DNA of 64,000 nucleotides from Medicago truncatula (taxonomy: Eukaryota; Streptophyta; Magnoliopsida; Fabales; Fabaceae), in assembly GCF_003473485.1 (NCBI RefSeq), contig NC_053046.1, positions 38,587,832 to 38,651,831 of the forward strand. The letters are read 5' to 3'. The notes under the pieces were generated by a model. It saw nothing but the letters and a program-made list of their open reading frames with translations, did no database searches and was not told where the DNA came from. Both the position numbers and the translations under genes were made by a program. Below are positions 2,641 through 64,000 of the stretch, one piece after another (the first letter of the stretch is position 1; each line of letters starts with the position of its first letter).

Positions 2641-2742
2641 TTAATTTCAAACTTTGGTTGGTGTTCCTCTTTTTCTTTCAAGACAGAATCTTGGAAAAAC
2701 AGTACAAATTGTTGCAAGTGGGATGGTGTCACGTGCGACACC

Positions 2743-6754: not shown

Positions 6755-6990
6755 CTTGTCATATTTCTATGGATGCTAATGAATTAATTATCGTATCACT
6801 AAAATTGCAACCACAAAAAATATTTCCACTGGAGTGCTCCATACGGTTGAAGAAGACATACTACCAAACAAGAGCACCGCAAGACTCAATTTCTAAAACG
6901 TTTACTCGGTTTTCTACGCAAAATACCTTTCATTCATTGGCTCAATTTATTTTCTTAATTTCTTTTAAATTAAAGGTAACTCTTCCTTCA
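6755..6990 (+). promoter_or_regulatory. Orphan RLP upstream block without an RLP
   Basis: 'ggatgctaatgaattaatta' is followed by 'gcaaccacaaaaaatattt', 'catacggttgaagaa' and 'caagagcaccgcaagact'. These reproduce the promoter block of the RLPs at 2468, 10347 and 22832. No RLP coding sequence follows, and a MULE-type element begins about 100 bp later. This is most likely the remnant of a lost RLP copy. Confidence 0.65.
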
Positions 6991-7995: not shown

Positions 7996-8062
7996 GTAGT
8001 ATTATTATGTAGTGTCTTTATTTGGTTGGAATTAAGTTTAATTCATGGTAGTCTGTTGAGAG

Positions 8063-8483
8063 TGTTGGGATTAAAGTGTCTTATACTTAGTATAAAGGTG
8101 TGCATATATGTTTCAAAATTCACAAGAATGAAGAGAACATAACATTTATTTTGTTGAATCAACTATATAGGTTCTCACATCGAACTCTTTGGTATAAGAT
8201 GAGTGTCACAAACAGGAATGCATTTATAAGATGTTGTTTTGAGCTTGATATGCTCATCTGTTAATTGAAACTTGTCAGTTGACATGGCAGTATGATTAAT
8301 TTTAAAAGAATATATTGGAATGCATTCATGTTCGTCATTGCTCATCTTATATGAATAAATTCGGCATGAGAACATGTATAATTGATTTGGTAGAATACAT
8401 GTGGTGTTCTCTTTATTCTTTTGAGTTTTGAAAGAGACTTGCAAATTTTTAAACTAAGTATAAGACACTTCAATGCCAACATT
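8063..8483. mobile_element. TIR MITE nested in the MULE-type element
   Basis: The left end TGTTGGGATTAAAGTGTC and the reverse complement of the right end TGTTGGCATTGAAGTGTC pair over about 70 bp, including 'cttatacttag' and 'agaatgaagagaaca'-like stretches. Length is 421 bp. Flanks 'gttgagag' and 'tttgagga' are only partly alike, so the target duplication is uncertain. It has no coding content. Confidence 0.65.
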
Positions 8484-10134: not shown

Positions 10135-10346
10135 AGAAAATTGCAACCACAAAAAATCTTCTTATCGGAGTGCCTCGTACGGTTTGAAGAAAGCACCCCT
10201 AACTAGAAAACAAGAGCATGCCAAGACTTATTCAGTTATGTTTCACATATAAATAACTAGAGTGTAATGGATTGGTACATACAAAATCATCATAAAGTAA
10301 AAAAGAAATAATATTGGTAAGAGAGTATTAGTCTAAGTCGCTCGAA
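10135..10346 (+). promoter_or_regulatory. RLP copy 2 promoter block with TATA box
   Basis: Carries the shared 'gcaaccacaaaaaatc', 'gtacggtttgaagaaagca' and 'caagagcatgccaagactta' motifs. A TATAAATA follows at 10248-10255, 92 bp before the ATG. Confidence 0.65.
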
Positions 10347-21892: not shown

Positions 21893-22604
21893 GTAAAATA
21901 ACTCATAATATCTTTTTTTCACACAATATTAATTACATTTCTTAATATGTGTGAAATGCCCAAAACATCATACAATTTGGGATGGAGGGGGTTAACTTTT
22001 TTCCCATTCATTTTTTGGTTGAATGTAATCTGACACATTAATAGAGAGTTGATTTTTTATACATACAAGAAAAGAATGAATTGAATTGTATTGAAGTGAT
22101 AGTGGGAGACTTGTATATAAAGAGAATAACTTGGTGCAAGTTCAGTAAAAGCAATCTCACGAATAGAAAAAGAAAAAAAAAACTTTATATTTTTGGTATT
22201 CGGAGCAGTATTAGTAATTTTAGGGTGTTGTTTTGGTGAGTTCTCTTTGTGAAGAGAGTACTCATATTTTAAGTTTTGGAAGGCTGTTTTATCCTGGAGA
22301 CGATGAGGTAAGATTGAACTGTTGTGCCTTAGAAGCAGAGCTGCGAATCGTCTTAAAAAAAGCGAACTAATCCGCAACTCAGCCTAATAATTTTTCTAAC
22401 AAATTATTTTGTGTTTGTGTACTAATTTTTGCAGCAACAGCTTCAAGAGTACGAAAATTGTTCCAACAATAAGTGATAACTATAAGGTGAAGCTGAACAT
22501 GCAAAAGAAGTCCAATATGAGTGCTACATGCAGTTCAAAAAGTCTTGCTATTTAATTTAATGCATGTTTTGATTTTCTTCCCATCTTAAATATACACGAA
22601 ACTT
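21893..22604. other. Spacer with Stowaway-like MITE end
   Basis: 'gggatggagggggtt' near 21979 resembles the end of a Stowaway-type MITE. Otherwise no gene is supported. Confidence 0.35.
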
Positions 22605-22831
22605 TTCTGTGGATGCTAATGAATTAATGTTGTTATCAATTGTCATATCATTGAAGCTGCAACCAGAATATTTCTTCCTACAAAGCAAGAGCATGCTTGC
22701 AAGAGCAATTTGTAAACAACCCCCATCTTATACCAATGCTTATATAATAAATTGAGCCTAATCAATTGGTACATCCAAAATCATCAGGTAAAAAAATAAA
22801 AATATCAAGAAGAGAGTTTAAGTTGCTCTAA
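22605..22831 (+). promoter_or_regulatory. Upstream block of RLP copy 3
   Basis: Contains 'ggatgctaatgaattaatgt' and 'caagagcatgcttgcaagag', collinear with the blocks before copies 1 and 2 but with internal deletions. Confidence 0.55.
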
Positions 22832-24985
22832 ATGGGGTCCTGTTTTGTTCTATTGTCCTATTTTACCTTTCACTTGTTCTTGTTGCTGCTGTTTACTCAT
22901 TTTACTTCCTACACCTTCTCATTATGCAACTATCATGACAGCTTTGCCTTGTTACAATTCAAGAACTTACTTCTTGTCAATGGCATTTCATCTCAGCATG
23001 ATATTTGGCCTAGTTGTTCCTCTTTTTCTTTGAAAACAGATTCTTGGAAAAATAATACAGATTGTTGCGAGTGGTATGGTGTCATGTGCGACACCGTTTT
23101 GGATCATGTGATTGGTTTGGACCTTAGGTGCAACAATCTTAAAGGTGAATTACATCTCAATAGCACTATCTTCAAACTTAAACACCTTCAACGACTCAAC
23201 TGGCTTTTAATGATTTTTTCAGGTCTTCGGTGCATGATGATATTAGTGATTTGGTGAATCTCACACATCTTAATTTATCAAACACTGGAATCATTTGTAA
23301 TATTCCTTCCACAATCTCTCACTTGTCAAAATTAGTATCACTTGATCTTAGCAGTAACTGATACATGGATCAAAAACTCAAACTTGATCCCTTCACATGG
23401 AAGGAACTCATTCATAATGTTACAAATTTAAGCGAGCTTCATCTGAATAGTGTTGATATGTCTTCCATCAGAGAGAATTCTTTGTCGCTGCTAAAGAATT
23501 TGTCATCCTCTCTGGTCTCTCTTAGTCTAGGGAACACTAGTTTGCAAGGAAATTTAGCAAGTGACATTCCCTCTTTACCTTATTGTAAAACTTCCAATGT
23601 TCAACTGGAGCACTCCTCTAAGGTACTTGGATCTCTCTTTAACTTTTTTCTCAGGTGAAATTCCTTATTCCATAGGTCAGTTGAAGTCTCTCAACCAGTT
23701 ATCGCTTAAAGCATGTGATTTGCATGGATTGATTCCTCAATCTTTATGGAACCTCACTCAACTAACACATTTGGACCTTTCATTTAACAAACTTAACGGT
23801 GAAATCCCATCATTACTTTCAAATCTCGCACATCTCACTTACTTGGATCTTGAACAAAATGCCTTTACCGGTTTGATCTTGAATATGTTCCATAAGCTTA
23901 TTAAATTAGAATATTTAGATATTTCCTCTAACAACATTACAGGTCAAATTCCCTCATCATTGTTCCATCTAGCTCAACTTTCTTATTTAGATTTATCATT
24001 TAATAAATTAGTTGGCCCAATATCCAAAATTGAGTATTGTGGATTTAAATAATAAAATGTTAAATGGAACAAATCCTCATTGGTGTTATTATTTGTTTTC
24101 TTTATTAGAGTTGTACCTCAGTGACAACCACCTCAGAGGGTCCATTGGAGAGTTCTCAACTTATTCGTTGCAAAAATTGCTTCTCTCTAATAACAAGTTA
24201 CATGGTCATTTTCCAAATTCAATATTTAAATTCCAAAATCTTACTTACTTAGGTTTGTCATCAACAAACTTGAACGGCGATGTGGACTTTCATCAATTTT
24301 CAAATTTTGAAAAACTAACTTTCCTTGATCTTTCCCGCAACAATTTTCTTTCTGTCAACATTGGTAGCAGTGTTGACTCCATCTCACCCAACCTTGAATC
24401 ATTATATTTATCTTCTAGTAATATTAATAGTTTTCCTAATTTCTTCGCACAACTTCAAAATCTGCAAGAGTTAGATCTATCTAATAACATAATTCAAGGA
24501 AAAGTTCCTAAATGGTTTCATGAGAAGCTCTTACACACATGGAGGGAAATTCGACATATCGATCTCAGTTTCAACAAGTTGCAAGGAGATCTTCCAATTC
24601 CACTCATTCAATACTTTTCACGCACAACAATTTAACAGGCATGATTCCACAATGCCTAGGAACATTTCCTTCTCTTTCTATATTGGATATGCAAATGAAC
24701 AACTTGTATGGAAGCTTTCCTAGAACCTTTTCCAAAGGAAATACATTTGAGATGATAAAGTTGAACGGAAATCAATTGGAAGGACCATTACCACAGTCTT
24801 TGGCTTAGTGCATAAATCTTGAAGTTCTGGACCTTGGTGACAACAATATAGAGGATACATTTCCCAATTGGCTAGAAACTCTACAAGAGTTACAGGTGCT
24901 AAGTTTACGATCAAATAATCTTCATGGTGCAATCACCTGTTCTAGCACAAAGCATACATTTCCCAAGTTGAGAATATTTTATGTT
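22832..24985 (+). pseudogene. RLP copy 3, decayed and 3'-truncated
   Basis: Starts MGSCFVLLSYFTF with signal peptide and CCEWYGVMC cap, then LRRs in at least four successive frames. Breaks are visible near 23200 (frame change after LQRLNW), 23361 (TGA), about 23580 (deletion/frame change) and 24025 (loss of the ITKRS segment). A deletion at about 24620 removes roughly one LRR. TAG at 24806 follows QSLA. Coding similarity stops at KLRIF near 24980 and jumps into the family 3' UTR. The last LRRs, island, membrane helix and tail are therefore deleted. It cannot make a membrane receptor. Confidence 0.9.
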
Positions 24986-38739: not shown

Positions 38740-41542
38740 ACCAACCGTATATATCTTCATATTTGAAAAGACCCTCATCATTCTTCTAGGATTTGCACGG
38801 GCTCTAGTGTTTGTTCTTTTCAATCTTATGTTAAATGTTTGCTCAAAAAGTCTAACAAACCATTATGGTTTCCCAATGAAGAGTACAATATATCCCAAGA
38901 TCATCCCAAATATTGTCCCACATGCATATCTTATTACTACCGCTTTCCAGCCAAATCCTGATTCCTCTTCTTCTTCAGATGTTGAATGTGGTGGTTGATC
39001 TTCATCATTTTTGCATGATTTAGACAATATGAATCCACATAACATTGTATTCCCTTCATAGGAATCATTTCCAAATGTATCAAACTGTTGGCCGGTAGGT
39101 ATGATTCCCTCAAGGTGGTTTTGTGAGAGATTCAAGAATGATAGGAAATTCAAATTTTCCAAAGCGGTGGGAATCTCACCTGTCAAATTAAATGGTTCCT
39201 TGAGAGGTCCAACCACTCCAAGTTTCTCAGATTACTCAAAGATTGTGGAATGCTACCTGTGATTCCATTGTTTGAAATAAGACCTTTGAGAGAATTCAAT
39301 TCTCCAACGACTTGAGGAATTTCTCCTTCAAACATGTTATTTGACAAATCAATAGTTGTGAAAGTTGTCAATATCCTTGTTAGCTCCATAGAAAAACCTT
39401 TCACTATGACCACCACAGAATCATTATAGTAATTGGCCTTACCCATGTACTGCAAACCAATTTGGCTATCATTCACATTCATCATTCCTTGAAAATTCCT
39501 GATGCATGTTGTCGGCAAGGGACCACTAAAAATTTTATTATAGATGTCGAAAATTCTCAACTTGGGAATGGATGTTTGGTCATAGAACAAGTGATTGTAC
39601 CATGCAGTTTATTTGATCTTAAAATGAGAACCTGTAAAAAGTATTTGATGCATGAAGTTGTTGTTAGAGAGTAAAAAGTATTCAATGCCATAAGGTGGAA
39701 TTGGAAGATCTCCTTGCAACTTGTTGAAACTGAGATCAACGTGCCAAATATACTTCCATGAGTTTAAGAGCATTTTATGAAACCATATGGAAATTTTTCC
39801 CATGAATGTTGTTTTTGGAGAGATCTAATTCTTGCAGACTTGGTATTCGAGCTAAGAATTTTGGAAAACTATTAATATTTGTAGAAGATAAATATAATGC
39901 ATTAAGGCTAGGTGAGATGGAGTCAATATTACTGTCAAAGTTGATAGAAAGAAAGCTATTGTGCGAAAGATCGAGGAAAGTAAGTAATTTAAACTTAGAA
40001 AAATTGTAAAAGTCTACTACACCTCTCAAGTTGGTTGATGACAAAGCTAAGTAAGTAAGATTTTGGATTTCAAATATTGAATTTGGAAAAGGACCATGTA
40101 ACTTGTTATTCGAGAGGAATAGATAATTCAATGAACTAGTAGAGAACTCACCAATTGACCCTGTGAGTTGGTTATCATTGAGATACAACCATGACAACGA
40201 AGGCAAGGAATAACACCAGTGTGGAATTGTTCCGTTTAAGTTGTTAGATTGTAAAAGAACAAAATTTAACTTGGAAAATTTGGTGATTTGAATCGGAATT
40301 GGGCCATCTAATTTATTAAACGATAAATCTAACATAGAAAGCTGAGTTAGATGAAACAATGATGATGGAACTTGGCCTGTTAGGTTATTTATTAAAGGAA
40401 AATACTAAAATTTCTAATTCGGTAAGCTTGTGGAACACATCCGAGATCATACCGTTGAAGTTATTATTTCCAAGACCAAAGGTAGTGAGGTGTGTGAGGT
40501 TTGAAAATAATATAATGGTGGAATCTCACCACTAAAGTTGTTAGTAGAGAGGTCTAACTTTGTTAGTTGAGTGAGGTTCCACAAAGATAGAGGAAGAACA
40601 GCATAGAAATTACAGTTTGAAAGGCCTAAATGTGTAAGATACTTCAAATTGCCTATGGAATAGGGAATTTCATCCGAGAAGGCGGTGTATGAGAGGTCCA
40701 AGTACCTTAGGGGAGTGCTCCAGTTGGACAGTGGAAGTTTCCCACTAAGGTCCTCATTAAAAGACAAATCTAGTTCTTGAAGATTTGGTAAAGAGAGGAT
40801 GTCACTAGCTTGGAAAATTTTCTTGCAAGCCAGTGATTGATAGATCAAGAGCGACCAAAGAGGACGATAAATTCCTTAGCAGCGACAAAGATCTCTCTCT
40901 GATTAAAGATATATCCACAGTATTCAAATGAAGCTCCCTTAAATTAGTAGCATTAAGAATGAGTTTCTTCCATGTGAGTGGACCAAGTTCGAGTTTCTGT
41001 TCCATGTTCCAGTAACTATAACTGCTAAGATCAAGTGATACTAATTTTGACAAATGAGAGATTGTGGAGGAAATATTACCACTAATGCCGGTGTTTGATA
41101 GATTTAGATGTGTGAGCTTCACTAGATCACCAATACCAGCATGCACCGAAGACCCGAAAAAATCATTAAAAGCCAAGTTGAGTTGTTGAAGGTGTTTAAG
41201 TTGAAAGATGGTGCTATTGGCCGCTAATTCACCGTTCAGATTGTTGCAACTAAGGTCCAGACCAATCACATAATCGTACATGATGTCGCACGTGACACCA
41301 TCCCACTCGCAGCAATCTGTGCCGGTTTTCCAAGATTCTGTCTTGAAAGAAAAAGAGGAACAGTGAGACCAAAAACCAGGTTGAGATGAAGTGTTGATAA
41401 AAAATGAATTCTTGAATTGTAACAAGGCAGAACTGTCATGATGCTTGCACATTGAAAATGTATAGGAAGTAAAAAGAGTTAGCAGCATCAACAAGAACAA
41501 GTGAAAGGCAAGATAAGGAAATAGAAAACAAAAGGACCCCAT
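38740..41542 (-). pseudogene. RLP copy 4, decayed
   Basis: Begins at 41542 with MGSFCFLFPYLAF, a signal peptide and a CCEWDGVTC cap. It then runs as LRRs in several frames to the ESGFGWKAV spacer, an altered membrane segment (GTIFGMILGYIVLF) and a basic tail near 38770. The frame changes near 40820, 40480, 40380 and 39800. About 300 bp are deleted near 39610-39640, where the ISSTFC to LETLQELQVL segment of the intact copies is missing. Further breaks fall near 39280 and 39190. The usual stop after RRRMN is not preserved. It is a clear pseudogene of the same subfamily as copies 2 and 5. Confidence 0.9.
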
Positions 41543-43440
41543 TTAGAGGAAACTATACTCTCTTCTTGAGGATTTTTTATTTGATTATTTTAGCCTCTAT
41601 CTATAGATGTTATGAAGAGGTTTGAAAGATGCAGAAGCATGACCTACTAAGCATTGATTGCAACCATATAGTAGTTGATAAGCAGAATGAATCAGGGAAA
41701 AGAATATTGCATATATGTCTTATTCTCTTTGTATTTGAAATTGTGGTAGTCTTGTCTTGTGCATTGGACTATTAGTGTTTTCCTGTCCTGGTTTGACAAA
41801 TCTTTTCTGGTGTTCTGGTTTGACAAATCTTAATGCTTTACCTATACAGTGTTTAATTCGTTAATAGAATAATTCCTATGATCACAATTTCCAAATTAAT
41901 CTTGTTTCGTGTATAAATTAAGACATTTACATTCACATTCCATATTTGTTACTGATAAATTTATGCTGCATGCTAAATTTTAGAAGTATTTAATTTGAAT
42001 AAGCATATGCAAATAGTACTTTGTAAATTATAAACCAAATGAAATAATTAGTCATTCAGTTTCATTGTTACTAATATCACAATATACTGTAAAGTTAATC
42101 TTGTTCGAGACATTATTAGACAATCAAATATGAATACTTCTCAAGTTGGTATTCCAATTATTTATCACGTTGCGAGAGACTGGTCCTTCCACTGGACCCA
42201 ACTATGTTTACCATATTTTTTGGTGTATGACTATTGACAACAGCATCAATTCCTTAGCATCCACATAAAAGTTTGGTGTATATTTAAGATGTGCAGAAGA
42301 AAATGAAAATATGCATTAAATAGCGCTCAAGTTGGAATGCTTTTAGTTACAAGGTTTTTTTTTTTTTTACTCAAAAAAGTACTCTTTTTAACTGAAAGAT
42401 GGAAAGAAAAAAACTCTAATTATTGGGAACTTCCGCTGTACACCCGCAAATTAAGGTGTCGTAATACTTCAATTTCTAAAAAATTTAAATTAACTATTAT
42501 TTTTATGAAATAAAGAGCTATTTGTTGATATTTATATTTTAGAAAATGTCATTTCATAAGAAAAATCATCATTTTTTTGTTTATAAAAATCATACTAATT
42601 TTTTTATATTTAATTGTAAACAATAATCAAAATTCTCTATTATGAGTCATAAAAATTCAGAAAAATTAAATTTGATTTCGTCGACGTTTTTGGTAAATAA
42701 GATTTAATTATTATAATCATAGGTGAAAGAAAACAATTTTTTCTCTTCAAAAAATAACACATTTAACTATTAATTTATAATTGATTTGGTGTACCAATAC
42801 ACTCAAATCTTTGAGTGTACTGTAGAAAATATTAGCTCACTTTTAATTTTGAATGAGTCTTGTCATTAAAAAAGTGTTAGCTCACTTATAATGTAGGACA
42901 AATCGAGTATTATATGAAAAATGTGAGTGAGTCTTGTCATTAAAAAAGGAATAGAGGTAGCTGAATTCATAAGTTTGATATGAGAAGACAACAAATATTC
43001 ATTTACTAGAAACCACAGTGTCTCATTTGACCAAAAATTTACACATCAATGAATAACAACATTAATCGTATTAAAAAATAGAGACTTGGACTTTCCTATT
43101 GTACAGAGTGGTCAAGTTGAATTAAGATCATTTAATAGAAACCACAGTGTCTTATTTTATTGAGGAGATGTTACGCAAAGGTGAAAATTAAAATTTGTTT
43201 ATTTTAGAGGTGTAAAGATATTCAATCTTTTAATAAACTACATGATTTTGGAGCGACCAATTCTATGAATAGACTATATAACTTGAAAGATTTTTTTTTT
43301 CCGGTCATTTGATAGGAATATTGAACGATATGCGAAAGAATCGGGTTTCGAACCTTAATCAACTCACTTACGCACTTTAAGAGATAGATTTTTAACCACT
43401 AAATTACTTTACCAAAAAATATTTGAAATTGAATTTCCTT
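41543..43440 (-). other. Upstream region of RLP copy 4 with diverged family flank
   Basis: 42170-42350 ('tattgacaacagcatcaatt', 'agcatccacataaaagtttg') and 42990-43160 ('aaccacagtgtct') match distal upstream pieces of the other minus-strand copies (48690-48990, 52930-53420). A degraded SINE-like patch with 'gggtttcgaacctt' lies at 43300-43420. The proximal promoter block is largely lost. Confidence 0.5.
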
Positions 43441-44770: not shown

Positions 44771-45229
44771 GAAGGCATCACTGTCCAAAGGTAAAAAAAA
44801 AACAAGCATTGAGTCTTTGGCATTTGTACACTTTGCTCGCTATCTATCTCTACAAATCACAATAGTCCTGGTTACGCACTTCAATATGGGATCTTTGGCA
44901 TTTGAAACTTAAATACTATGTTTTGGTAGTTAATTTTCTTTCACATGTGCTTAGATAGTATGATAAAGTATTTGAGACAAGATTTTTAACATGTAGTTGG
45001 TTGGTAGAGCTGATGCTTCTTAATGTGAATTAGAGCATCCTTAATTAAATCTCACTTCAAATAGACCTAGGTTTTGGCACATTTTAATACAAGCATTTAG
45101 GAACAAAACTACGTTTTCATTCAGCTTGCATAGAGACCAAGCGCAACATATGCTAGTCATTATCCATTTGAAGTACCAACGCCTATCGAATGAATCCATA
45201 AAAACTAGTAGACAATTGGATAAAAATGT

Positions 45230-45459
45230 TCAAAAACGAAACAATAAAGTCTTGAGCACATTTTAGAAAGTATATGTGAGTCTTTTATGAAAATAACATG
45301 AAAGCAATTTGATCACTAATTTTCTTATTTGTATAACAACTATTTTTTTGACAAACTATTTGTATAACAACCTTAAATAGGCGACATAATAATTTGAGAA
45401 GATATAATACTACATTACTCAAACAGATAGGCACAAATTACAAACAACCTGAAATAGAC
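45230..45459 (-). other. 3' flank of RLP copy 5
   Basis: Collinear with the sequence either side of the LTR at 49799-50585 ('caataaagtcttgagca', then 'gaaaataacatgaaagcaat'). It therefore preserves the insertion-free version of that site near 45280. Confidence 0.7.
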
Positions 45460-48400
45460 TCAATTGTTTGTTCTTTTCATTCTTATGTTAAACGTATGCT
45501 CAACAAGTCTAAGAAGCCATTGGGGTTTTCCAGTGAAGAAGAATACATTATATCCCAACAGCAACCCAAATATTGCCCCACATCCATATCCGATCACTAC
45601 CGTTTTCCAGCCAAATCCTGATTCTTCTTCGTCTTCAGATGTTGAATGTGGTGGCAGATCTTTCTCGTTTTTGCATGATTTAGACAATGGGAATCCACAT
45701 AACATTGTATTTCCTTCATAGGAATCATTTTCAAATGTAGCAAATTGTTGACCCGTAGGTATGACTCCCTCAAGGTGGTTGTTTGAAAGGTTCAAGAATG
45801 ATAGGAAATTCAAATTTGTCAAAGCCACAGGAATTTCACCCGTCAACTGGTTTTTTGAGAGGTCTAACCACTCCAAATGTCTCAATTTACTCAAAGATTG
45901 TGGAATGGTACCTGTGATTCTATTGTTTGAAAGGTTAAGACCTTTGAGAGAATTTAATTCTCCAATGACTAGAGGAATTTTTCCTTCAAACAAGTTATTT
46001 GATAAATCAATAGTTGTGAAAGTAGTCAATATCTTTGTTAGCTCCATAGAAAAACCTTTCATTGTGACCACCACAGAATCATTATAGTAATTGTTCTTAC
46101 CCATGTATTGCAAACCAATCTGGCTATCATTCACATTCATCATTCCTTGAAAGTTCTTGATACATGATGTTGGCAAGGATCCACTAAAATTGTTACCGAA
46201 GATGTCAAAAATTCTTAACTTAGAAAAAGGATGGTTGGTGTTAGAACAGGTGATTGAACCATTAAGTTTATTTGATCTTAAACTGAGTACCTGTAACTCT
46301 TGTAGAGTTTCTAGCCAATTGGGAAATGTATCCTCTATGTTGTTGTATCCAAGGTCCAAAATTTTGAGTTCTGTACAGTGAGCCAAAGATTGAGGTAATG
46401 GTCCTTCTAATTGGTTGCCATTCAACTTTATAGTCTCGAAGGCATTTCCTCTGGAAAAAGTTTTAGGCATGCTTCCATTAAGGTTGTTCATTTGCATATC
46501 CAAAACGGAAAGAAAAGGAAATGTTCCCAGGCATTTTGGAATTATGCCTGTCAATTTGTTGTGGGCCAAATTGAGCACGTTCATGGAGCTTGCTTGGCAC
46601 AATTTTGAAGAAATGTCTCCTGCGAAGTTGTTGTTTGAGAGCAAAAAGTATTCAATGCCATCGGATGGAATTGGAATGTCTCCTTGCAATTTGTTGAAAC
46701 TGAGGTCAATGTAACTAATTTCATGGGCAATATCATTCAATGTGTTTAAGAGCTTCTTATGAAACCATTTGGGAATTTTCCCATGAATGTTGTTATTGGA
46801 GAGATCTAATGTTTGAAGTTTTTGTGCGTGGAATTTAGGAAAACTATTAATATTAGCAGAAGATAAATCTAACATCTCAAGGTTGGGTAAGATGGAGTCA
46901 GCACTGCTATTAGTGTTGATAGAAAGAAAACTATTGTGCGAAAGATTGAGGAGAATTAGATTTTTAAGTTTTGAAAATTGGTGAAAATCCACAACACCAC
47001 TCAAGTTTGTTGATGACAAATCTAATTCAGTAAGATTTTGGAGTTGAAATATTGAATTTGAAAAATGACCTTCTAGGTTGTTATTTGAGAGAGTCAAAGA
47101 TTGAAAAGAATATGTTGAAAACTCACCAATGAACCCTGTGAGATGGTTGTAATGGAGGTACAACTCTAACAATGAAGGCAAATAATAACACCACTGTGGA
47201 ATTGTTCCATTTAACATGTTATATTCTAGACCCACATAGCTCAATTTTAAACGTTTTGTAATTTCAATTGGAATTGGGCCAACTAGTTTGTTAAATGATA
47301 AATCTAAATGAGAAAGGTGGGGTAGATGAAAAAGTGATGATGGAACTTGGCCTGTTAGGCTGTTGGAGGAAAGTGATAAATATTCCAATTTGGTTAAATT
47401 TTGATAAACATTTGGAATGCTACCGCTAAAGTTATTATATCCAAGGTCACAATAAATGAGGTGTGAGGGGTTTGAAAGTAATGGTGAAATCTCACTGTTA
47501 AGTTTATTTCTTGAAAGGTCCAAATATGTTAGTTGAGTGAGGTTCCACAAAGATAGAGGAACCATCCCATCAAAATTGCAACCTAAAAGGTCTAATTGAG
47601 TAAGAGACTTCAATTGACCTATGGAATAAGGAATTTCACCTGAGAAAGCAGATAAACGGAGGTTCAAGTACCTTAGAGGAGTGCTCCAGTTGGACTTTGG
47701 AAGTTGACCACTAAGGTTTTGATTAAATGACAAATCCAATCTTTGAAGATTAGGTAAAGAGAGGATGTCACTTGACAAATTTCCTTGCAACTGAGTGGAT
47801 GCTAGACTAAGAGAAACCAAAGAAGATGACAAATTCGTTAACAACGACAAAGAGCTCTCTCCAATTGAAGACATTTTCACTCCATTCAGATGAAGCTCCC
47901 TTAAATTAGTAGCATTATGAATGAGTTTCTTCCATGCGAATGGATTGAGTTCCAAAGAATCATAATTGTTAAGATCAAGGGATACTAATTTTGACAAATG
48001 AGAGATTTTGGAAGGAATATTACCACTGAGGTCACAGTATGATAGGTTTAGATGTGTGAGTTTCACTAAATCACTAATACCAATAGGTATTGAAGACTCA
48101 GAAAAATGATTAAAAGCCAAGTTGAGTTGTTGAAGGTGTTTAAGCTGAAAGATGGTGCTATTGGGATGTAATTCACCTTTCAGATTGTTGCAACTGAGGT
48201 CCAGACCAATCACGTGATCTGACATGGTGTCGCACGTGACACCATCCCACTCACAACAATCTGTACTGTTTTCCCAAGATTCTGTCTTGAAAGAAAAAGA
48301 GAAACAACCAAAGTACGGATTGGGTTGAGATGAAGTGTTGAGAAGAAAAGAGTTTTTGAATTGTAATAAGGCAGAGGTGTCATGATGGTTGCATAATGAG

Positions 48401-48486
48401 AAAGTGTGGGTAGTAAAGTGAGTAAGCAACAACAACGAGAACAAGTGAAGGGCAAAACAAGGCAAAAGAATAAAAAAGGACCCCAT
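45460..48486 (-). CDS. Cf-9-like LRR receptor-like protein, copy 5 (intact)
   Basis: An intronless 1008-aa frame. It has a signal peptide (MGSFFILLPCFALHLFSLLL, cleaved near FSLC), a CCEWDGVTC cap and about 28-30 LRRs. The island NDSVVVTMKGFSMELTKIL is followed by the last LRRs, the acidic EDEEESGFG spacer, a membrane helix at about 960-984 (GYGCGAIFGLLLGYNVFF) and a 24-aa basic tail. No kinase is present, so signalling would need partners such as SOBIR1 (family knowledge). The start is supported by the signal peptide and by a TATA-bearing family promoter block just upstream. The C terminus is about 10 residues shorter than in copy 2, ending RMKRTNN. It carries the RLP family LRRs without the duplications seen in copy 2. 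Confidence 0.95.
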   Translation of the reverse strand: MGSFFILLPCFALHLFSLLLLTHFTTHTFSLCNHHDTSALLQFKNSFLLNTSSQPNPYFGCFSFSFKTESWENSTDCCEWDGVTCDTMSDHVIGLDLSCNNLKGELHPNSTIFQLKHLQQLNLAFNHFSESSIPIGISDLVKLTHLNLSYCDLSGNIPSKISHLSKLVSLDLNNYDSLELNPFAWKKLIHNATNLRELHLNGVKMSSIGESSLSLLTNLSSSLVSLSLASTQLQGNLSSDILSLPNLQRLDLSFNQNLSGQLPKSNWSTPLRYLNLRLSAFSGEIPYSIGQLKSLTQLDLLGCNFDGMVPLSLWNLTQLTYLDLSRNKLNSEISPLLSNPSHLIYCDLGYNNFSGSIPNVYQNLTKLEYLSLSSNSLTGQVPSSLFHLPHLSHLDLSFNKLVGPIPIEITKRLKLSYVGLEYNMLNGTIPQWCYYLPSLLELYLHYNHLTGFIGEFSTYSFQSLTLSNNNLEGHFSNSIFQLQNLTELDLSSTNLSGVVDFHQFSKLKNLILLNLSHNSFLSINTNSSADSILPNLEMLDLSSANINSFPKFHAQKLQTLDLSNNNIHGKIPKWFHKKLLNTLNDIAHEISYIDLSFNKLQGDIPIPSDGIEYFLLSNNNFAGDISSKLCQASSMNVLNLAHNKLTGIIPKCLGTFPFLSVLDMQMNNLNGSMPKTFSRGNAFETIKLNGNQLEGPLPQSLAHCTELKILDLGYNNIEDTFPNWLETLQELQVLSLRSNKLNGSITCSNTNHPFSKLRIFDIFGNNFSGSLPTSCIKNFQGMMNVNDSQIGLQYMGKNNYYNDSVVVTMKGFSMELTKILTTFTTIDLSNNLFEGKIPLVIGELNSLKGLNLSNNRITGTIPQSLSKLRHLEWLDLSKNQLTGEIPVALTNLNFLSFLNLSNNHLEGVIPTGQQFATFENDSYEGNTMLCGFPLSKSCKNEKDLPPHSTSEDEEESGFGWKTVVIGYGCGAIFGLLLGYNVFFFTGKPQWLLRLVEHTFNIRMKRTNN

Positions 48487-48730
48487 TTAGAGCAACTTAC
48501 ACCGATTCTCTTTTTTTACTTTGATGATTTAGGATATACCAAATGATTAGCCTCTATTTATATAGGAAACATAACTTGAAACTAAGGGGCAAGGACCAAA
48601 AAGTCTGACTTATTAGATTGTTTACAAATTCAGTCTAGCTATTCCCTTGTTTTAATGTGGGGTGCTTTTCATAACCGTATAGTGATATGACAATTGGCAA
48701 CAATATTAATTCAATAACAATCATAGAAAA
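48487..48730 (-). promoter_or_regulatory. RLP copy 5 promoter block
   Basis: A TATA-like run on the minus strand (about 48554-48564, 'cctatataaatagagg') lies 70 bp before the ATG. 'gggtgcttttcataacc' further up is a diverged piece of the family block. Confidence 0.5.
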
Positions 48731-49793
48731 GTTTGGTGTTCATTAAACTAAATAACATATTGGAAGACCAAGACTTTTCGAACGTAATTAGCAAGTTGGA
48801 ATCTTATTGCAAGTTGTGATAATAAGATAACAAATTCATTTAAGTAGCAATCAGAATGAGTAATTTGCTTAAAAATACACCTGAAATGAAGAAAATAATA
48901 ACAACATTAATAATTGTCTTTAGAAGCGGAGACTTCTTCAACTGTATAGACTTTAGCGCTCAAGGTGGATTACTCTTGGCAAGGATACTTTATTTTATGT
49001 GTTTTTTTTTTCTATGGTTCTTAACTAAACTACAAAAATTTCTTTAAATTTATAATTTCCTCAAAGCTTATTATAGCACATAAGAAAATGCACTGAGCAT
49101 ATAAAAAGAAAAAGTATTAAGTGTCATATGATATCGATACTCTACTATTGAGTTCTACTGTAAACCACCTTTATAAGCGGTTCATCATGGATCACTAATT
49201 AAAATTATTAAATAATTCAATGATGGATGACGTTACTATTCAAAAATAAAAACTCATGATGTTTCCTATATTTGCGACTAAGACGGTGACTTGATTGGTG
49301 TATGTTCAGTGCGAGCTAATAATAATTTTACATTCTCCCACATGAGATTTAACATTGTTACATTCCCAGAGTTGGATTCAAACTCACGACATCTGATTAG
49401 GCTGGAAGAGGTCACTTTCATCTTACCCAACTAATCTTGGGTTATTTTATGTTGTTTTAATTAAAATAATATGTCCTCCTTCCCAAATCATAAGTTGCTT
49501 TACAATACTAATAAGATATGTTAGGCTTAGGTGAGATTGTATTCAAAAGATAAACATATTCATATGTACTACCATCATCCATTTTCTTTGATGGCGGCCG
49601 AGATTTGAACATCGAACCTTGTATATTTTTATGCATTGTCTATACCAATTGAACTAAGCTCACGAGGACCTACCAACATCCATTTGAAGAAACAACACAT
49701 ATCCAATCAATTACAGCTAGGAGATAATTGGATAAAAATGTCCAAAAATGAAGCAATAAAGTCTTGAGCATAATTTAGAAAGTATATGCATTA
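48731..49793. other. Spacer: RLP distal flank, SINE and MITE remnants
   Basis: 48850-48990 shares 'gctcaaggtggattactctt' with 53411-53430 upstream of the split RLP. 49588-49672 has 'gagatttgaacatcgaacct' and 'caattgaactaagctcacga', a SINE remnant. No gene is seen. Confidence 0.45.
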
Positions 49794-49798
49794 TTGCA

Positions 49799-50585
49799 TG
49801 TTGTATATGTCTTCAAATTTGTGAAGTTGAGAATGTTGGAATCGTGACATGATTTTGGCATCGTGGTACGATTTTCAAGGCAGTGAGCATGGTTTTCAGA
49901 GTGTCCAATCGTGACATGATTTTGGGAAAACGTGACACGATTTTTGGCTTGTTGGGCAAGATTTTCAGGATAAGGTTTGTCGTACCTTGGGTCGTACGCA
50001 TCAATCGTGACACGATTGGAAAAAAAAACGTGACACAATTTTGATGTTGAAGACTGCTATATAAGTGTTCTTTGCAGATTTTGAAGGAGAGCTTGAAGAG
50101 AGAGAAACTTGGAAAATCAAATGAGGTAACTTTAGGGTTGAGGGTCTCTTGGGTTGGGAAACATTGTAAACACTTTGGTGAGTGAAAATCATTGAGTGTC
50201 TTATTCATTGGTGAGATTGGGAAGGAAAAATAAAAGGTAGAAATTAGGGTTGTTCTTTGTGAACTTGTCAAAGTTAATTTCTTGTAACTCTTTTGTATCT
50301 CTTTGTAAGAACTCATTGATAGTGGATTGGAGAGATCAATCTCTCCTCCAGAGTAGGTCAAGTTTGGACCGAACTGGGTGAACAATCTTTGGTGTGTTTG
50401 TTTCTCTCTTCTCTCCCTTTATCTTATGCTTGTGGTTTTGTGCTTTTCATTTTGATTACTAGATTAGACCTAGGTGTTGTTATTATTGTTGTTGCTTGTG
50501 TTTACTTTGAAATTGGTTACTACTTCTTTTGCTCCACACATCATAGTTTTTTGTATTGGTGTGATTTTGTCCGGAATTCACAACA
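49799..50585 (+). mobile_element. Solo Copia-type LTR with exact 5-bp target duplication
   Basis: Starts TGTTGTATATGTC and ends GGAATTCACAACA, so the 6-bp ends are perfect inverted repeats. TTGCA flanks it at 49794-49798 and 50586-50590. Inside are repeated 'cgtgacacgattt' units and a TATA-like 'ctatataagtg' at about 50055. At 787 bp with no internal domains, it is a solo LTR. The paralogous flank near 45280 lacks it, so it inserted after the RLP duplication. Confidence 0.85.
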
Positions 50586-50819
50586 TTGCATAACAAAGCC
50601 ATGAAAATAACATGAAAGCAATTGTTCACTAATTTTCTTATTTTGTATAACAACTATTTTTTTGACAAATTATTTGTATAACTTGAAATAGGAAAAATAA
50701 TAATTTTAAAAGATATAAGACTACATTACTCAAACAGAGAAGTTCAAATTACAAACAACCGTATCTATATTTTTTAAAGACTTGCATCAAATTAATTCAT
50801 TCTATGTGATTTGCAAGGG

Positions 50820-51310
50820 ATCAATTGTTTGTTCTTTTCAGTCTTATGTTAAATGTATGCCAACAAGTCTAAGAAGTCATTCAGGTTTTCCAGTGAAGAA
50901 GAATAGATTATATCCCAATAGCAACCCGAATATTGCCCCACATCCATATCCGATCACCACAGCTTTCCAGCCAAATCCTGATTCCTCTTGATCATCAGTT
51001 GTTGAATATGGTGGAAGATCTTCCTCATTTTTGCATGGCTTAGACAATGGATATCCACATAACATTGTATTCCCTTCATAGGAATCATTTCCAAATGTAC
51101 CAAACTGTTGACCTGCAGGTATGATTCCCTCATGGTGGTTTTGTGAAAGGTTTAAGACAGAGAGGAAATTCAAATTTGTCAAAGTCACGGGAATTTCACC
51201 GGTCAATTGGTTTCTTGAGAGGTCCGACCACTCTAAATTTCTCAATTTACTCAAAGATTGTGGAATGGTACTTTTGATTCCATTTTTTAAGAGGTTAAGG
51301 CCTTTAAGAG
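50820..51310 (-). pseudogene. RLP copy 6, C-terminal fragment
   Basis: Minus-strand reading runs SLKGLNLLKNGIKSTIPQSL, then the last LRRs, CKNEEDLPPYSTTDDQEESG, the membrane helix GYGCGAIFGLLLGYNLFFF and GKPE, where a stop falls before the tail. Similarity to copy 5 stops abruptly near 51310. Upstream coding sequence is replaced by plus-strand DNA; the matching N terminus is at 52535-52728. Confidence 0.88.
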
Positions 51311-51324
51311 AATGTCGATGTTCG

Positions 51325-51415
51325 ACAATATGCACTCTAACCAATCTTAAATATAGACCACACATTTCTATAATGCTAATGATTTAATGTTGTTGTCATT
51401 TGTCATATCACTGAT
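51325..51415 (+). promoter_or_regulatory. RLP upstream fragment in opposite orientation
   Basis: 'ctaatgatttaatgttgttg' and 'catttgtcatatcactga' match the plus-oriented RLP upstream block at 22575-22660. It sits directly before the LysM-receptor fragment and points toward it. Confidence 0.6.
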
Positions 51416-51427
51416 ACTCAACTAAGC

Positions 51428-52500
51428 CTAGATATGCTCTGTGTTTATTTAAGAGTGAATGTTCCATTCCCTTGTGATTGCATCAATGATGAGTTTCTTG
51501 GTCACACGTTTCTGTACGAGCTTCAGCCAAGAGATACATATGCTTCCATTGCTGAGTTGACTTTTAGCAATTTGACAAATAAAGGGTGGATGGAGAAGGT
51601 CAATAAGCTCTATTCCTGATTCTGTGATGGTTAATGTTACTGTTAACTGTTCCTGTGGAGAAAGACTGGTTTCCAAGGATTATGGTTTGTTCGTAACATA
51701 TCCTCTTAGTTCTGAGGACACTTAGTTTGGAGTCCATTGCAAAGGATACCAAGATGGATGCTGAGTTGCTGCAGAGGTACAACCCAGGTGTGAATTTCAG
51801 CCAAGGAAGTGGTCTGGTTTTTATTCCAGGGAAAGGTAACATATTTTATTTTGCTTTTATTTGAGTTTCGGTATTTTGAATTTCAAAATTTGTCAAAAAA
51901 GTATTTCAGACCTGCTTGAATTGACTTATCTGCGTTTATCTGCTTGTGAGACTGTAGAGAGCTTATGAAAAGAACTTACAATAAGTTATTATTATGCCTT
52001 TATTTTTTTCTTTTACTATAGAAATTACTTATGTGGTAAGCGCTTCATTGAGTTGTTTATCCAAACAAAGCGTTAATGTTTGACTATATTATCCAATTTA
52101 ATATTCATTCTGTTATTGATTTTTTCCTTTTAACTTTGCAGATAAAAATGGAGTTTATGTTCCCTTGCCCCACGAGTAAGTTTTAATCGGTTACCCTTCA
52201 TGCTCAGTGCTCACAACAATGAACATTCATATGTTTTGTTCGATAATCATTATTTCTATTTCCTTTTCTCTCTTGCAGAAAAGCAGGTTTGGCCTTCAAA
52301 CATATCAGAGAATCAGCCATATTGATTCCTATTTGTTTTTGGCATGTCTCTCTGAGCTTAAATTTCTATCTATATAAGCAGGTCATTTAGCTAGGAGTTT
52401 AGCTACTGTTATCGGAGGAATATGCATGGTTCTGTTATTAGCAATTTGTATATATACTAGATACTTTCGAAAAAGAATGCAGAGGAATCTAAATTGCCAA
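51428..52500 (+). pseudogene. LysM receptor-like kinase (LYK/CERK1-type) fragment, kinase missing
   Basis: The first open stretch reads RVNVPFPCDCINDEFLGHTF and on to TYASIAELTFSNLT. After a frame change comes MVNVTVNCSCGERLVSKDYG, then GLFVTYPLSSED. After another change comes SLESIAKDTKMDAELLQRYN, then PGVNFSQGSGLVFIPGK, ending at a GTAAC donor (51835). This covers LysM1-LysM3 with the CxC pairs. Further exons fit in phase: 52142-52175 (DKNGVYVPLPHE), an apparent 8-nt microexon 52279-52286, and one from 52382 with the membrane helix ATVIGGICMVLLLAICIY. Sequence then runs into RLP DNA before any kinase exon. The signal peptide is also missing. LYKs perceive chitin or Nod factors in legumes; this copy cannot signal. 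Confidence 0.88.
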
Positions 52501-52534
52501 AAATATATCGATACTTTCGAAAGAAGAAAAAGAG

Positions 52535-52728
52535 GAAAAATTATGCCCCCAAAGTTGAGAAATATCGGGTTTCGATGAAGTGTTGACTGAAAGAGTTTTT
52601 GAATTGTAACAAGGCAGAGGTGTCATGTTTGTTTCACAGTGAGAAAGTATAGGAAGTAAAATGAGTAAGCAGCAACAAGAAGAACATGTGAAAGGTAAAA
52701 TAAGGCAATAAAATAAAAAAGGACCCAT
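52535..52728 (-). pseudogene. RLP copy 6, N-terminal fragment
   Basis: ATG at 52728 begins MGPFLFYCLILPF. One G is lost in the second codon relative to the other copies, so the signal-peptide region is read in the wrong frame. DNA similarity to the RLP start continues to about 52535 (cap region before CCEWDGVTC), then stops at the LYK junction. Confidence 0.85.
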
Positions 52729-53000
52729 TTAGAGATACTTACACTTTCTTCTCAATATTCTTTCTTTTTTACTTGAGGATTATGTATGTACCAATCCATT
52801 AAACTGTAGTTATTTATATGGGAAACACAGCCGAACAAGTCTTGGCATGCTCTTGTTTTGTAGTAAGGGACGCTTTTCTTCAACCGTATGAGGCACTCCA
52901 TTAAGAAGAATTTTTGTGGTTGCAATTTTAGACTTTTAGTGATATGATAATTGATAAAAACATTAATTTATTAGCATCCATAGACATATTTGGTGTAGGT
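52729..53000 (-). promoter_or_regulatory. RLP copy 6 promoter block
   Basis: The minus strand carries 'caagagcatgccaagacttg', 'catacggttgaagaaaagcg' and 'gcaaccacaaaaattc', with a TATA-like run near 52808-52816. It is one of the best preserved blocks although its gene is dead. Confidence 0.65.
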
Positions 53001-53566
53001 TTAAGAGGGTAACGACTGAAGAAAATGAAAACATGAACTAAATTAAATAACATTTTCTACAAGGGAAGACCAAGACTTTTGAACCATATGTAATACTTAA
53101 GTTGCAATCCTAATTTGCAGGTTTTTTTTTTTGAAGAAGCCCTAATTTGCAGGTTTAATAATATGACAATTGACAACAACATTAATTAATTAGCATCCGT
53201 TGAAATGTATGGTGTATGTACTATATTTAAGATTTAAGATAGCACTCAAGTTGGAATCTTATTGCAAGGTGTAACTTAATTTATGTGATAACAAATATTT
53301 AAATAGAAATCACAATGAGTAGTCTGGTTAAAGAATGACATAGGAAATGAAGAAAATAACAGCATTAATTGTATAGAGAAGCAAAGACTTAGACTTCTTC
53401 ATCTTTATAGAGCGCTCAAGGTGGATTACTCTTCCGAATGGATACTTATTTACCAAAAATTGGTTAATGTTATGATTTATTCAATGGATGATTGCTCACA
53501 TTTTCAGAAAAAATGTCCATTGGGATTACGATCCAATCCATTGAGCAATTTGAAGGGCTTATTGAA
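53001..53566. other. Distal RLP flank
   Basis: 53160-53430 repeats pieces of 48700-48990. Short ORF at 53421-53630 has no recognisable domain. No gene seen. Confidence 0.4.
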
Positions 53567-53577
53567 CAATTACCTTA

Positions 53578-53743
53578 TGAGAATTGTTCTTCTCATCTGT
53601 TTTTGCTCATTCCCGTCCTACATGAGTTAACTCACGCTGAAAAATACACCTACGTGAGTTAACTCATGTTGAAAATACATCTGCATGAGTTAACTCACGC
53701 TCGGCTATTTGACGGGAATGAGCAAAAACAGATGGAAGAAGAG
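53578..53743. mobile_element. MITE with internal 'gagttaactca' repeats
   Basis: Inverted ends share 'catctgtttttgctcattcc' with its complement at 53715-53735. Direct repeats CAATTACCTTA at 53567-53577 and 53744-53754 flank it. The centre holds three copies of the palindrome 'tgagttaactca' spaced about 33-34 bp apart. Confidence 0.8.
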
Positions 53744-54043
53744 CAATTACCTTACCTTATTCTATGATACTTAGGCCCACTAATGATCGATGATATGAAT
53801 GATGCATCAAACAACGGTGCTACTACTTCATATGTTCACCGACACAAAAATTTAACACAACATTAAACTTTGATTCATTTTATGCTTATGCATATAGCAA
53901 TTATCAAGGACACATCAAAGGGAAACAAAGTTATATGATTAAAAATATTCTTAAAAAGATAAAAACTATGAACAATAAGATAGTTACAAGATCTTGCAGA
54001 TGTCAGGGGAAGAAGATTTAAGCTATAAGGCTGAATTCAAAGC

Positions 54044-59049: not shown

Positions 59050-59335
59050 AATTTAAAAAATAAAATAGAGTGCAAGGTAACAGCTCAGTTTGGGAGAAAC
59101 CGTGCGATGTGGATGTCGTGTTCCATGACCATAACCATCTTACATCGTTTATATGTTGTGTTAGAGACTCTCGTGGACAATGTATTCGGACTCAAACAAA
59201 ATGGCAGCGTGCAAACATGACAGTGTTGAAAGGGGAGGCGGTAGCCTTACTCGATGTCATTCACTTTGCTGATGTGAACAGATGGAACCGGGTTGTCTTC
59301 GAGTTCAATTCAACTACTCTAGTGCCAAATTTTAT
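59050..59335 (+). pseudogene. RNase H-like domain fragment (LINE-type)
   Basis: The frame from 59070 reads SSVWEKPCDVDVVFHDHNHL, CCVRDSRGQCIRTQTKWQ and VLKGEAVALLDVIHFADVNR, ending FEFNSTTLV. This is the N-terminal two-thirds of the RVT_3 RNase H-like domain. No RT is upstream and the C-terminal part is lost after 59335. Sequence onward to 59590 is open but unrecognised. Confidence 0.7.
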
Positions 59336-59599
59336 TACTCTTATAATTCATTATAATGTTATAAATGAATTATATGAACCAATAATATATGTAGGGTCAA
59401 ATTGCTTAAATATTAAAATGTTAATTAAAAAATATGATAGGCAAGTGGGGTCAAGTGACCCCATTGCGTCCACCCTCAGTCGGTGGATGAATGGGATGGG
59501 TTGGACCGGCATAAAACCGACAGAATTCGAATCGAATTCACTAATATGTTGTCGAATTTTAAGTTTACGTAAGTCTTTCGAAATATGTTAATCATTCTA

Positions 59600-60989: not shown

Positions 60990-61043
60990 ACAGTATATAT
61001 GTTTTCTAACTAACTAACTATAACATTTGTCATTAAAAAAAAA
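60990..61043 (+). promoter_or_regulatory. TATA-like element of the TNL gene
   Basis: 'cacagtatatatg' near 60987-61000 lies about 45 bp before the ATG at 61044, a short leader containing 'aactaactaact'. The role is inferred from position. Confidence 0.4.
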
Positions 61044-64000
61044 ATGTCGTGTTGGCCGGAATTGAATTCGAACGGTACTTCTCACAGAAAGTACGATGTG
61101 TTCATCAGCTTTAGAGGCGAGGACACTAGATTCGGTATCACAGACCATCTTTATGATGCTCTGATTCATAAATCAATAAAAACATACATAGATTACCAGC
61201 TCAATAGAGGAGAAGATGTTTGGCCAGCACTTTCCAAAGCAATTGAGGACTCATACATCTCCATCATTGTTTTCTCTGAAAATTTTGCTACATCAAAATG
61301 GTGTTTGGAAGAACTCGTCAAAGTGCTCGAATGTAGAAAAGATCATGGTCAAATTGTTATACCTGTTTTTTATAAAGCAGATCCTTCTCACATAAGAAAC
61401 CAGAAAGCCAGTTATGAGACTGCATTCGCGAAACATGAGCGTGAGCTCGGGACCAAAGACAGCATATCCAACAAATCTAAAGTGCTTAAATGGAAAGCTG
61501 CCCTTACTGAAGCAGCCAATATATCTGGATGGGACAGTCACACCTATGAGTAAGCAGTTTTTTATGAATTTGAATCTGCATTTCATTGCATTATGTCTCC
61601 GTTTTCTCATTTGACATTGCCTATGAGCCATACTCAACAGTTTTATATGTGTTTTAACTATTACTAGAATTAAGAAATACATCAAAATTAACATATTTAT
61701 GATAAATTTAATTAATATTTACTTTTTGTGTCATTTGTTCTTTTATTTTTATGATGTTAGGAAAGAATCTATCCTCATTCTCAAAATTGTGAATGATGTA
61801 TTGGAAAAGCTACAACTGAGGTACCCTAATGAACTAGAAGGCGTGGTGAGAAACGAAAAAAACAGTGAATGCGTAGAATCATTACTGAAAAAATTTCGAA
61901 TACTTGGAATTTGGAGTATGGGCGGAATGGGAAAGACAACCATTGCCAAAGTCTTTTTTGCCAAACACTTTGCCCAATATGACCATGTTTGCTTTGCTAA
62001 TGCAAAAGAATATTCACTTAGCAGGCTTCTCTCTGAGCTACTAAAGGAAGAAATTTCTGCATCCGATGTTGTAAAATCTACAATTCATATGAGGAGGCTG
62101 AGAAGTAGAAAAGTTTTGATTGTACTTGATAATGTGGAAAGTTCAGATCAATTTGATTATTTATGCAGAGACTACCATGACCTAACTCAGGATAGTAGAC
62201 TCATTATAACAACAAAAGACAAACAATTGCTGAGAGGAAGAGTTGATTGGATATATGAGGTCAAGCACTGGGAAGATCCAAAATCTCTAGAGCTTTTTTG
62301 TCTAGAAGCTTTCGAGCCAAGTAATCCTCGCGAGAAGTATGAGCATCTCTTGCAAAAGGCAATCACTTATGCAGGGGGCGTTCCACTTGCCCTTAAACTT
62401 TTGGCTTTACATCTTCGTTCAAGAGAGATTGAATTTTGGGTAAGTTCTTTCAAGAAACTCGATAAGTATCCTGATGGCAGATTGCACAAAGTTTTAAGAG
62501 TGAGCTATGATGAATTAGATGCACTGCAGAAGAAGATATTTCTTGACATTGCATTCTTCTTCATAGGAGAAAAGAAAGAGCGTGTGACAAAGATACTAGA
62601 TGCTTGTGGTTTTGAACCAAACAGTGGAATAGTTGTCCTCAAAGACAAGGCTTTGATAACTGTCTCAAATAACCATACAATACAAATGCATGACTTGCTG
62701 CAGAAAATGGGTTCGGACATAATATGTAATGATTGTGGTGAAGACCCTGCAACACATACACGACTGAGTGGAACAGCAGCTTTTGAAGTAATTGAAGAAA
62801 ACAAGGTAAAATTTACTGTTAAATTTGTACTATCTAATAAATGTACTAGCTAATTAATTAATTGGATTCGTTTCACTTATTGCCTTGCCAGGGGAGTAGC
62901 TCAATTGAAGGGATAATGTTGGATTTGTCTCAAAACAATGTTTTACCTTTAACTTCCGATACATTCACCAAGATGAAAGCCTTGAGAATTCTTAAATTCC
63001 ATGCACCCTCTAGCCTGCAGAAATGTACTATCACGTACCCCTACCTTCCAAAATTTCTTAAGCTATTTTCAAAAAAACTTAGGTATTTTGAGTGGTATGG
63101 ATACCCTTTTGAGTCTCTTCCGCAGCCTTTTCATGCTAAGTTTCTTGTTGAGATCCGCATGCCGCACAGCAATGTTAAACAACTGTGGCAGGGGATGAAG
63201 GTAATATATTATATACACACACTTAATAACATATTTTTTCTCTTCTTCAGAATTTGCATTTTGATCATATCTCCTTTTGAATTGTTATAGGAACTAGGTA
63301 AATTAGAAGGAATTGACCTGAGTGAATGCAAGCACTTAATAAAGCTTCCGGATTTTTCTAAGGCGTCAAGTCTTAAATGGGTTAATCTCTCTGGTTGTGA
63401 GAGTCTAGTTGATCTTCCTCCATCTGTTTTATGTGCAGATATGCTTGTTACTTTGATACTGCATAGGTGTACAAAGATTACGAGTGTTAGAGGTGAAAAA
63501 CATTTAAATTGTTTGGAGAAGATCAGTGTGGATGGGTGCAAGAGTCTGAAAATTTTTGCAGTGTCCTCGAATTTAATTGAAAACTTGGATTTAAGCAGTA
63601 CAGGAATCCAAACACTGGACCTATCAATTGGGAGCCTTGAAAAACTCAAACGACTTAATCTAGATAGTTTAAAACTCAACTGTCTTCCAGAGGGGTTATC
63701 TAGTGTGACATCTATTAGTGAGTTGAAAATTTCTGGCAGTGCACTAATAGTTGAGAAACAATTGTTAGAGGAGCTCTTCGATGGATTACAATCCCTACAA
63801 ATACTACATATGAAGGATTTCATAAACCAGTTTGAACTCCCCAACAACATCCACGTTCTATCAAAGTTAAAGGAATTAAACCTTGATGGGAGCAACATGA
63901 AAAGGTTGCCTGAAAGCATTAAGAAACTTGAAGAACTGGAAATTCTTTCTTTGGTGAATTGCAGGGAGCTTGAGTGCATACCAGAGCTTCCACCTCTCGT
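61044..64000 (+). CDS. TIR-NBS-LRR immune receptor, 5' part (runs off the window)
   Basis: An intracellular NLR of the TIR class. Exons with GT-AG junctions in phase are 61044-61549, 61761-62805, 62892-63200 and 63291 onward, open at the window end. TIR: KYDVFISFRGEDTR at 16-29 and SKWCLEEL at 84-91, whose E90 fits the NADase catalytic glutamate. NB-ARC: P-loop GGMGKTT at 223-229, kinase-2 LIVLDNV at 288-294, RNBS-B SRLIITT at 314-320, GLPL-type GGVPLAL at 374-380 and MHD at 478-480. LRRs start in exon 3 (SSSIEGIMLDLS) and continue in exon 4 (LEGIDLSECKHLIKLPDFS). Exon order TIR / NB / linker / LRR matches the usual TNL gene. All key motifs are intact, so it is probably functional; the C terminus is not in the window. 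Confidence 0.95.

Follow-up and report, generated by a model that had tools for sequence, protein, structure and literature searches.

A decayed receptor-like protein gene in a Medicago truncatula cluster whose lost middle was probably patched with antisense LysM receptor kinase DNA during break repair

The stretch of Medicago truncatula DNA that we analyzed (the window, 64,000 nucleotides) contains six copies, R1 to R6, of one type of LRR receptor-like protein (RLP) gene. The copies were delimited by homology matches of more than 150 bases, those of 150 bases or less having been left out beforehand:

2358 to 5449, plus strand: RLP copy R1
10234 to 13555, plus strand: RLP copy R2
22747 to 24979, plus strand: RLP copy R3, truncated
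38802 to 41590, minus strand: RLP copy R4
45201 to 49000, minus strand: RLP copy R5, adjoining R6
50877 to 51313 and 52524 to 52728, minus strand: RLP remnants of R6, the locus of interest, with ends and flanks kept

Other features of the window were recorded along with the cluster. R3 is without homology to the final part of the R5 coding sequence, while 25109-25138 matches R5 downstream DNA, and this copy may carry a deletion of its own. Between R1 and R2, 6761-6886 is 72% like RLP upstream DNA (52838-52989); no RLP copy was found there and the stretch is perhaps a relic of another one. A TIR-NLR resistance-type gene with TIR, NB-ARC, winged-helix and LRR_3 domains lies beside the cluster at 61014-63290. 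The open reading frame at 59064-59591, with an RVT_3 (reverse transcriptase-like) match of 27 bits against a cut-off of 21.6, is likely a retroelement remnant, and 53594-53734, where a perfect 24-base inverted repeat flanks repeated TGAGTTAACTCA units, is perhaps a small inverted-repeat element.

At R6 the two ends of the RLP gene enclose DNA of other origin, and the parts follow one another along the forward strand in this order, with the basis of each assignment in brackets:

50877 to 51313, minus strand: 3' coding remnant of the RLP with its last LRRs (open reading frame; LRR_1 and LRR_8 models above cut-off; blastn)
51314 to 51340, minus strand: joint A, weakly continued RLP homology or short filler (gapped alignments only)
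51341 to 51417, plus strand, inverted relative to the host RLP: RLP upstream (promoter-region) element of 77 bp (union of blastn matches; inverted repeats)
51413 to 51835, plus strand: 5'-truncated exon 1 of a LYK gene, with the end of LysM1, LysM2 and LysM3 (Pfam LysM_RLK, PDB matches, frames)
51836 to 52141, plus strand: LYK intron 1 (GT and AG ends)
52142 to 52175, plus strand: LYK microexon of 34 bp encoding DKNGVYVPLPH (DKNGVYVPL lies within alignments to solved LysM receptors)
52176 to 52278, plus strand: LYK intron 2 (GT and AG ends)
52279 to 52500, plus strand: part of LYK exon 3, with a hydrophobic helix and the start of the cytoplasmic stretch (frames, repeated AAGCAGGT; helix and end near 52500 by inspection, provisional)
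52501 to 52523, plus strand: filler-like second LYK copy (52510-52522 repeats 52460-52472; alignment; exact ends inferred)
52524 to 52728, minus strand: frame-broken 5' coding remnant of the RLP, covering the signal peptide and the first part of the N-terminal cap (open reading frames, blastn)
52729 to 53451, minus strand: upstream region of R6, partly still collinear with the R5 upstream region (blastn)

An earlier note on this DNA had placed the start and end of the RLP in order on the minus strand, and comparison with the paralogues agrees. Homology of the 3' part stops at 51313 and extends in the other direction to 50601-50747, with 81-86% identity to R1, R2, R4 and R5. The 5' part is 71-81% identical to R1-R5 by blastn, its homology running rightwards from 52524 in the comparisons with R2 and R3 and beginning at 52560-52568 in those with R1, R4 and R5. 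The flanks are homologous to those of R5 on both the 3' side (49678-49788 and 50601-51313) and the 5' side (52564-52827 and 53153-53451). The RLP interior absent from R6 amounts to 2365 bp relative to R5, 2075 bp to R4, 2323 bp to R1 and 2523 bp to R2 (four of the five other copies were compared, R3 being left out), and the place of this lost 2.1-2.5 kb of coding sequence is occupied by approximately 1.2 kb of plus-strand DNA. Because RLP homology, including the flanks, is kept outside the gap, R6 is an RLP duplicate that is foreign in its interior alone. A working LRR receptor-like protein, with an N-terminal cap, a long LRR array, a membrane helix and a short tail in one frame, was not found at R6, where only both ends are left. 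The 3' remnant encodes an acidic stretch and a membrane helix (by inspection) and is disabled by a premature stop after FFTGKPE, and the 5' remnant is partly out of frame relative to the paralogues.

The RLP downstream flank also contains an LTR-like stretch of about 750 bp (49834-50585) that starts with TGTTG, ends with CAACA and carries repeated CGTGACACGAT-like motifs. It fills a gap in the R5 homology (49788/50601 against 45276/45287 in R5), and no target duplication was seen at it by eye.

The plus-strand guest between the RLP ends, from approximately 51413 to 52500, is a fragment of a LYK-type (CERK1-like) LysM receptor kinase gene, which upholds the reading first given to it. The Pfam LysM_RLK model matches it with 56.3 bits against a cut-off of 27, while two LysM2 models stay below cut-off on the frame-broken sequence (18.6 against 36 and 18.0 against 27.4). 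The best seven of 11 PDB matches are LysM receptor kinases with E values from 2.2e-48 to 8.5e-32. Read as a composite, the guest is identical to 5ls2 at 80 of 137 aligned residues and to 9h24 at 78 of 137; for 6xwe (LysM domain receptor-like kinase 3), two stretches were counted, with 25 of 54 and 25 of 37 residues identical. PFPCDC and NCSC are present in the translated frames, which gives the CxC spacing of LysM repeats described as a LYK-type feature in the accessible text of PMC6207691. LysM2 and LysM3 are encoded in one exon, followed by two GT/AG introns and the 34-bp microexon, so that three exons are present in the guest; for PsLykX, the accessible text of PMC5694491 gives 12 exons with the three LysMs encoded in exon 1.

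The guest thus resembles the LYK/CERK1-type kinases 5ls2, 9h24 and 6xwe in its LysM2-LysM3 pair with CxC motifs and in its microexon, and differs from them in being frameshifted and in having no signal peptide, little of LysM1 and no kinase, none being present in the insert. Of the three LysM domains that the earlier note had assigned, LysM2 and LysM3 are there and LysM1 is mostly absent, the homology beginning near 51413 at the end of that domain; the microexon was borne out, and the membrane helix in exon 3 is assigned by inspection, the sole model match being below cut-off (14.5 against 28.9 bits). A working LYK member, with signal peptide, three LysMs, kinase and open frame, was not found at this locus. 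Exon 1 contains at least two frameshifts, near 51605 and 51722, as judged from frames and alignments. We assume a probable third one near 52475 in exon 3, a region covered by no solved chain, and our assignment of the helix, of the KLPK end and of the guest end near 52500 is provisional. The word AAGCAGGT occurs twice in this exon, at 52281 and 52376, and 52281-52375, the approximately 95 bp that separate the two words, is probably an additional segment. Inverted ends are not evident by eye at this segment (52281-52383), which is perhaps another small repair patch.

With tblastn, no second LYK ectodomain piece was found in the window, the only matches besides the guest being 8050-8127 (E 0.36) and 46374-46219 (E 7.4), and a local donor within the window was therefore rejected. 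No kinase domain was found in the 9 open reading frames examined out of the 18 of at least 75 amino acids between 52800 and 64000, a weak test that short exons escape. No relative was found either among viral contigs (query of 55 residues of the LYK piece) or among genome contigs (135-residue composite).

The appearance of a foreign gene fragment at a new site is what a retroposed LYK transcript would also produce, and we give this explanation a next to negligible probability. Retention of both introns contradicts it, the LYK 3' part is absent from the insert, and no run of seven or more A is found in 51300-52600, where a single T7 lies inside intron 1. The insert was accordingly not classed as a retrocopy, for which lost introns and a poly(A) tail were sought. 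The kept introns and the missing tail had both been recognized in the earlier note, which favored repair-mediated insertion at the DNA level over retroposition; the composite insert, the repeat and the shared bases at its joint now point the same way.

The earlier note had left 51341-51417 unexplained. This segment is an inverted RLP upstream element: its best blastn match is 22580-22654 upstream of R3 (84%, E 4e-16), it also matches 53161-53234, 52938-53006, 42226-42290 and 48677-48737 at 80-82%, and all of these matches fall upstream of RLP copies. The element is oriented against the host RLP and with the LYK piece, so that the order at the locus is RLP 3' end (minus), RLP upstream (plus), LYK (plus) and RLP 5' end (minus). 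From this order and orientation it follows that inverted copies of the element enclose both the LYK piece and the 5' end of the RLP, as seen in the pairs 51343-51408/53161-53234 and 51345-51412/52938-53006. The upstream region of R6 itself contains two direct copies of the element (52935-53000 and 53154-53219) that are 82% alike and 219 bp apart.

These inverted copies bear on the possibility that the locus records independent events, in which a deletion or inversion in the RLP first left an upstream element in inverted orientation, and a LYK fragment arrived afterwards. The similarity of the element to the copies upstream of the host itself is about 80%, and R3 is another damaged RLP in the cluster. 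However, the top match of the element is the R3 upstream region (84%) and not the host's own (80%), and no more than about 27 bp are left unaccounted for where the element links the end of the RLP to the start of the LYK piece; on balance we consider such a history improbable. At the left joint, homology to the RLP is firm as far as 51313 and continues only weakly up to about 51340. Matches to the element extend to 51414-51417, and codons of LYK type are seen from about 51413, so that the two pieces appear to touch or to overlap by a few bases.

The right joint is not clean. The word GATACTTTCGAAA at 52460 recurs at 52510, giving 13 exact bases repeated 50 bp apart, and the repeated LYK copy passes into the RLP antisense strand with GAAA and AGAGGAA common to both. 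None of 3000 dinucleotide shuffles gave a shared word of at least 13 bases, but 74 of 5000 positions drawn at random from the window did (1.5%); because of the latter, the repeat is only suggestive of templated filler.

The insert ends provide little for a gene-capturing transposon (Pack-MULE, Helitron or CACTA), which might otherwise have brought the LYK piece. The ends (51300-51440 and 52440-52540) share an inverted word of at most 5 bases, at the bottom of the range of 5-14 bases obtained over 1000 random pairs, and no target duplication was found there, the longest direct word being 5 bases; the marks of a Pack-MULE or other element with terminal inverted repeats, namely those repeats and a target duplication, were thus not seen. 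Helitrons are recognized by 5' TC, by 3' CTRR after a hairpin and by insertion between A and T; the scan of the insert ends covered inverted and direct words. Inverted copies of the upstream element do occur in the wider flanks, but one of each pair is host upstream DNA and not an insert end, and plain insertion leaves the more than 2 kb of missing target unexplained. Such elements do take up genes and gene fragments (summarized in the accessible text of PMC3445842), and the LTR-like element at about 49834-50585 is nearby; even so, we regard this origin as very unlikely.

Our preferred reading, to which we assign a probability of roughly 70%, is that R6 is a decayed RLP pseudogene whose lost middle was patched with templated filler while a double-strand break was being repaired by a process that switched templates. 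A DNA double-strand break in the RLP would have led to the loss of 2.1-2.5 kb. Into the gap, the RLP upstream element would have been copied first, in opposite orientation, from another RLP or from the gene's own upstream region, followed by a genomic stretch of a LYK gene about 1.1 kb long; a short stretch of the same LYK DNA would then have been copied again and joined to the other RLP end at the shared bases. Such a route corresponds to filler-DNA repair, by synthesis-dependent strand annealing or polymerase-theta-type end joining. The points in its favor are the flanks collinear with R5, the deletion, a patch that draws on an RLP upstream region and a LYK gene and thus has two sources or more, and the bases shared at the right joint, with the repeat as a suggestive addition. 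All parts may have arrived in a single event, though separate arrivals of the LYK piece and the upstream element are also conceivable. Uptake was apparently at the DNA level, with neither a transposon nor an RNA step. Gene conversion, which the earlier note had offered as a second route, requires homology and was rejected: when 50501-54000 was compared with the window by blastn (E up to 1e-3), no LYK/RLP homology was found and 51418-52523 matched itself alone.

A false join of unrelated DNA during assembly or cloning was also considered, as RLP clusters are repetitive and difficult to assemble. Nevertheless, decay has affected the guest as well as the host and the local repeat at the joint has diverged; both features point to an old structure of natural origin, and we judge an artefact highly improbable. 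The structure is real in the assembly, from which alone its contiguity is taken, it is well preserved, and it is of a known kind.

Wicker and co-workers reportedly found in 2010 that gene fragments are moved as filler in plant break repair. In the accessible texts, plant pseudogene patterns fit the copying of gene fragments as filler (PMC7935947), the mechanism is summarized in PMC3445842, templated insertions are a hallmark of polymerase-theta end joining in Arabidopsis (PMC10923293), and the maize p2/p1 chimeric gene carries complex mosaic filler DNA, with filler sizes from 1 to 131 bp (PMC2686159). Because of that size range, a patch of about 1.2 kb draws its precedent from the gene-fragment literature. 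As far as the text of PMC2686159 goes, maize p2/p1 resembles R6 in its paralogue cluster, deletion, mosaic filler from nearby sequence and end joining; it differs in having related partner genes and 50 bp of filler, whereas the R6 patch measures about 1.2 kb, derives for the most part from a different gene family, lies antisense and has a dead product. Gene-fragment filler of the Wicker type, as cited in PMC3445842, is similar in placing a fragment at a foreign site without transposon ends of its own; at R6, in contrast, the receiving site is inside another receptor gene and the patch has a second source, the RLP upstream region. The Arabidopsis polymerase-theta joints in the available text of PMC10923293 share with R6 a deletion, shared joint bases and a short copy of flanking sequence; there, induced breaks were followed directly, and R6 is comparable only in the copy of about 20 bp at its right end. 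In a limited open-licence search, the titles and abstract beginnings listed showed no case of an RLP fused with a LysM receptor or of LysM gene capture.

The R6 locus probably makes no receptor and is, judging by its sequence, most likely a silent pseudogene. The suggestion that ectodomain chimeras could arise in this way is only partly apt: no fusion receptor is to be expected from disabled parts of which one, the LYK piece, runs antisense to the RLP. The RLP upstream element stands before the LYK piece in the same orientation, and we raise, as a tentative and rather doubtful idea, that one break-repair event with serial template switching left the relic of a "promoter plus ectodomain" swap, made in one step, between the RLP and LYK families. 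If this were true, the order from promoter to LYK would be the one needed by a new gene under RLP control; the LYK start is absent here. R6 holds no evidence of a functional chimera; rather than a hybrid receptor in working order, it looks like the clear fossil trace of a process that is ordinary in plants. The locus is well preserved and illustrates how fragments of unrelated receptor genes can enter plant receptor clusters at the DNA level, and how the upstream part of one pattern-receptor family can end up next to the ectodomain part of another.
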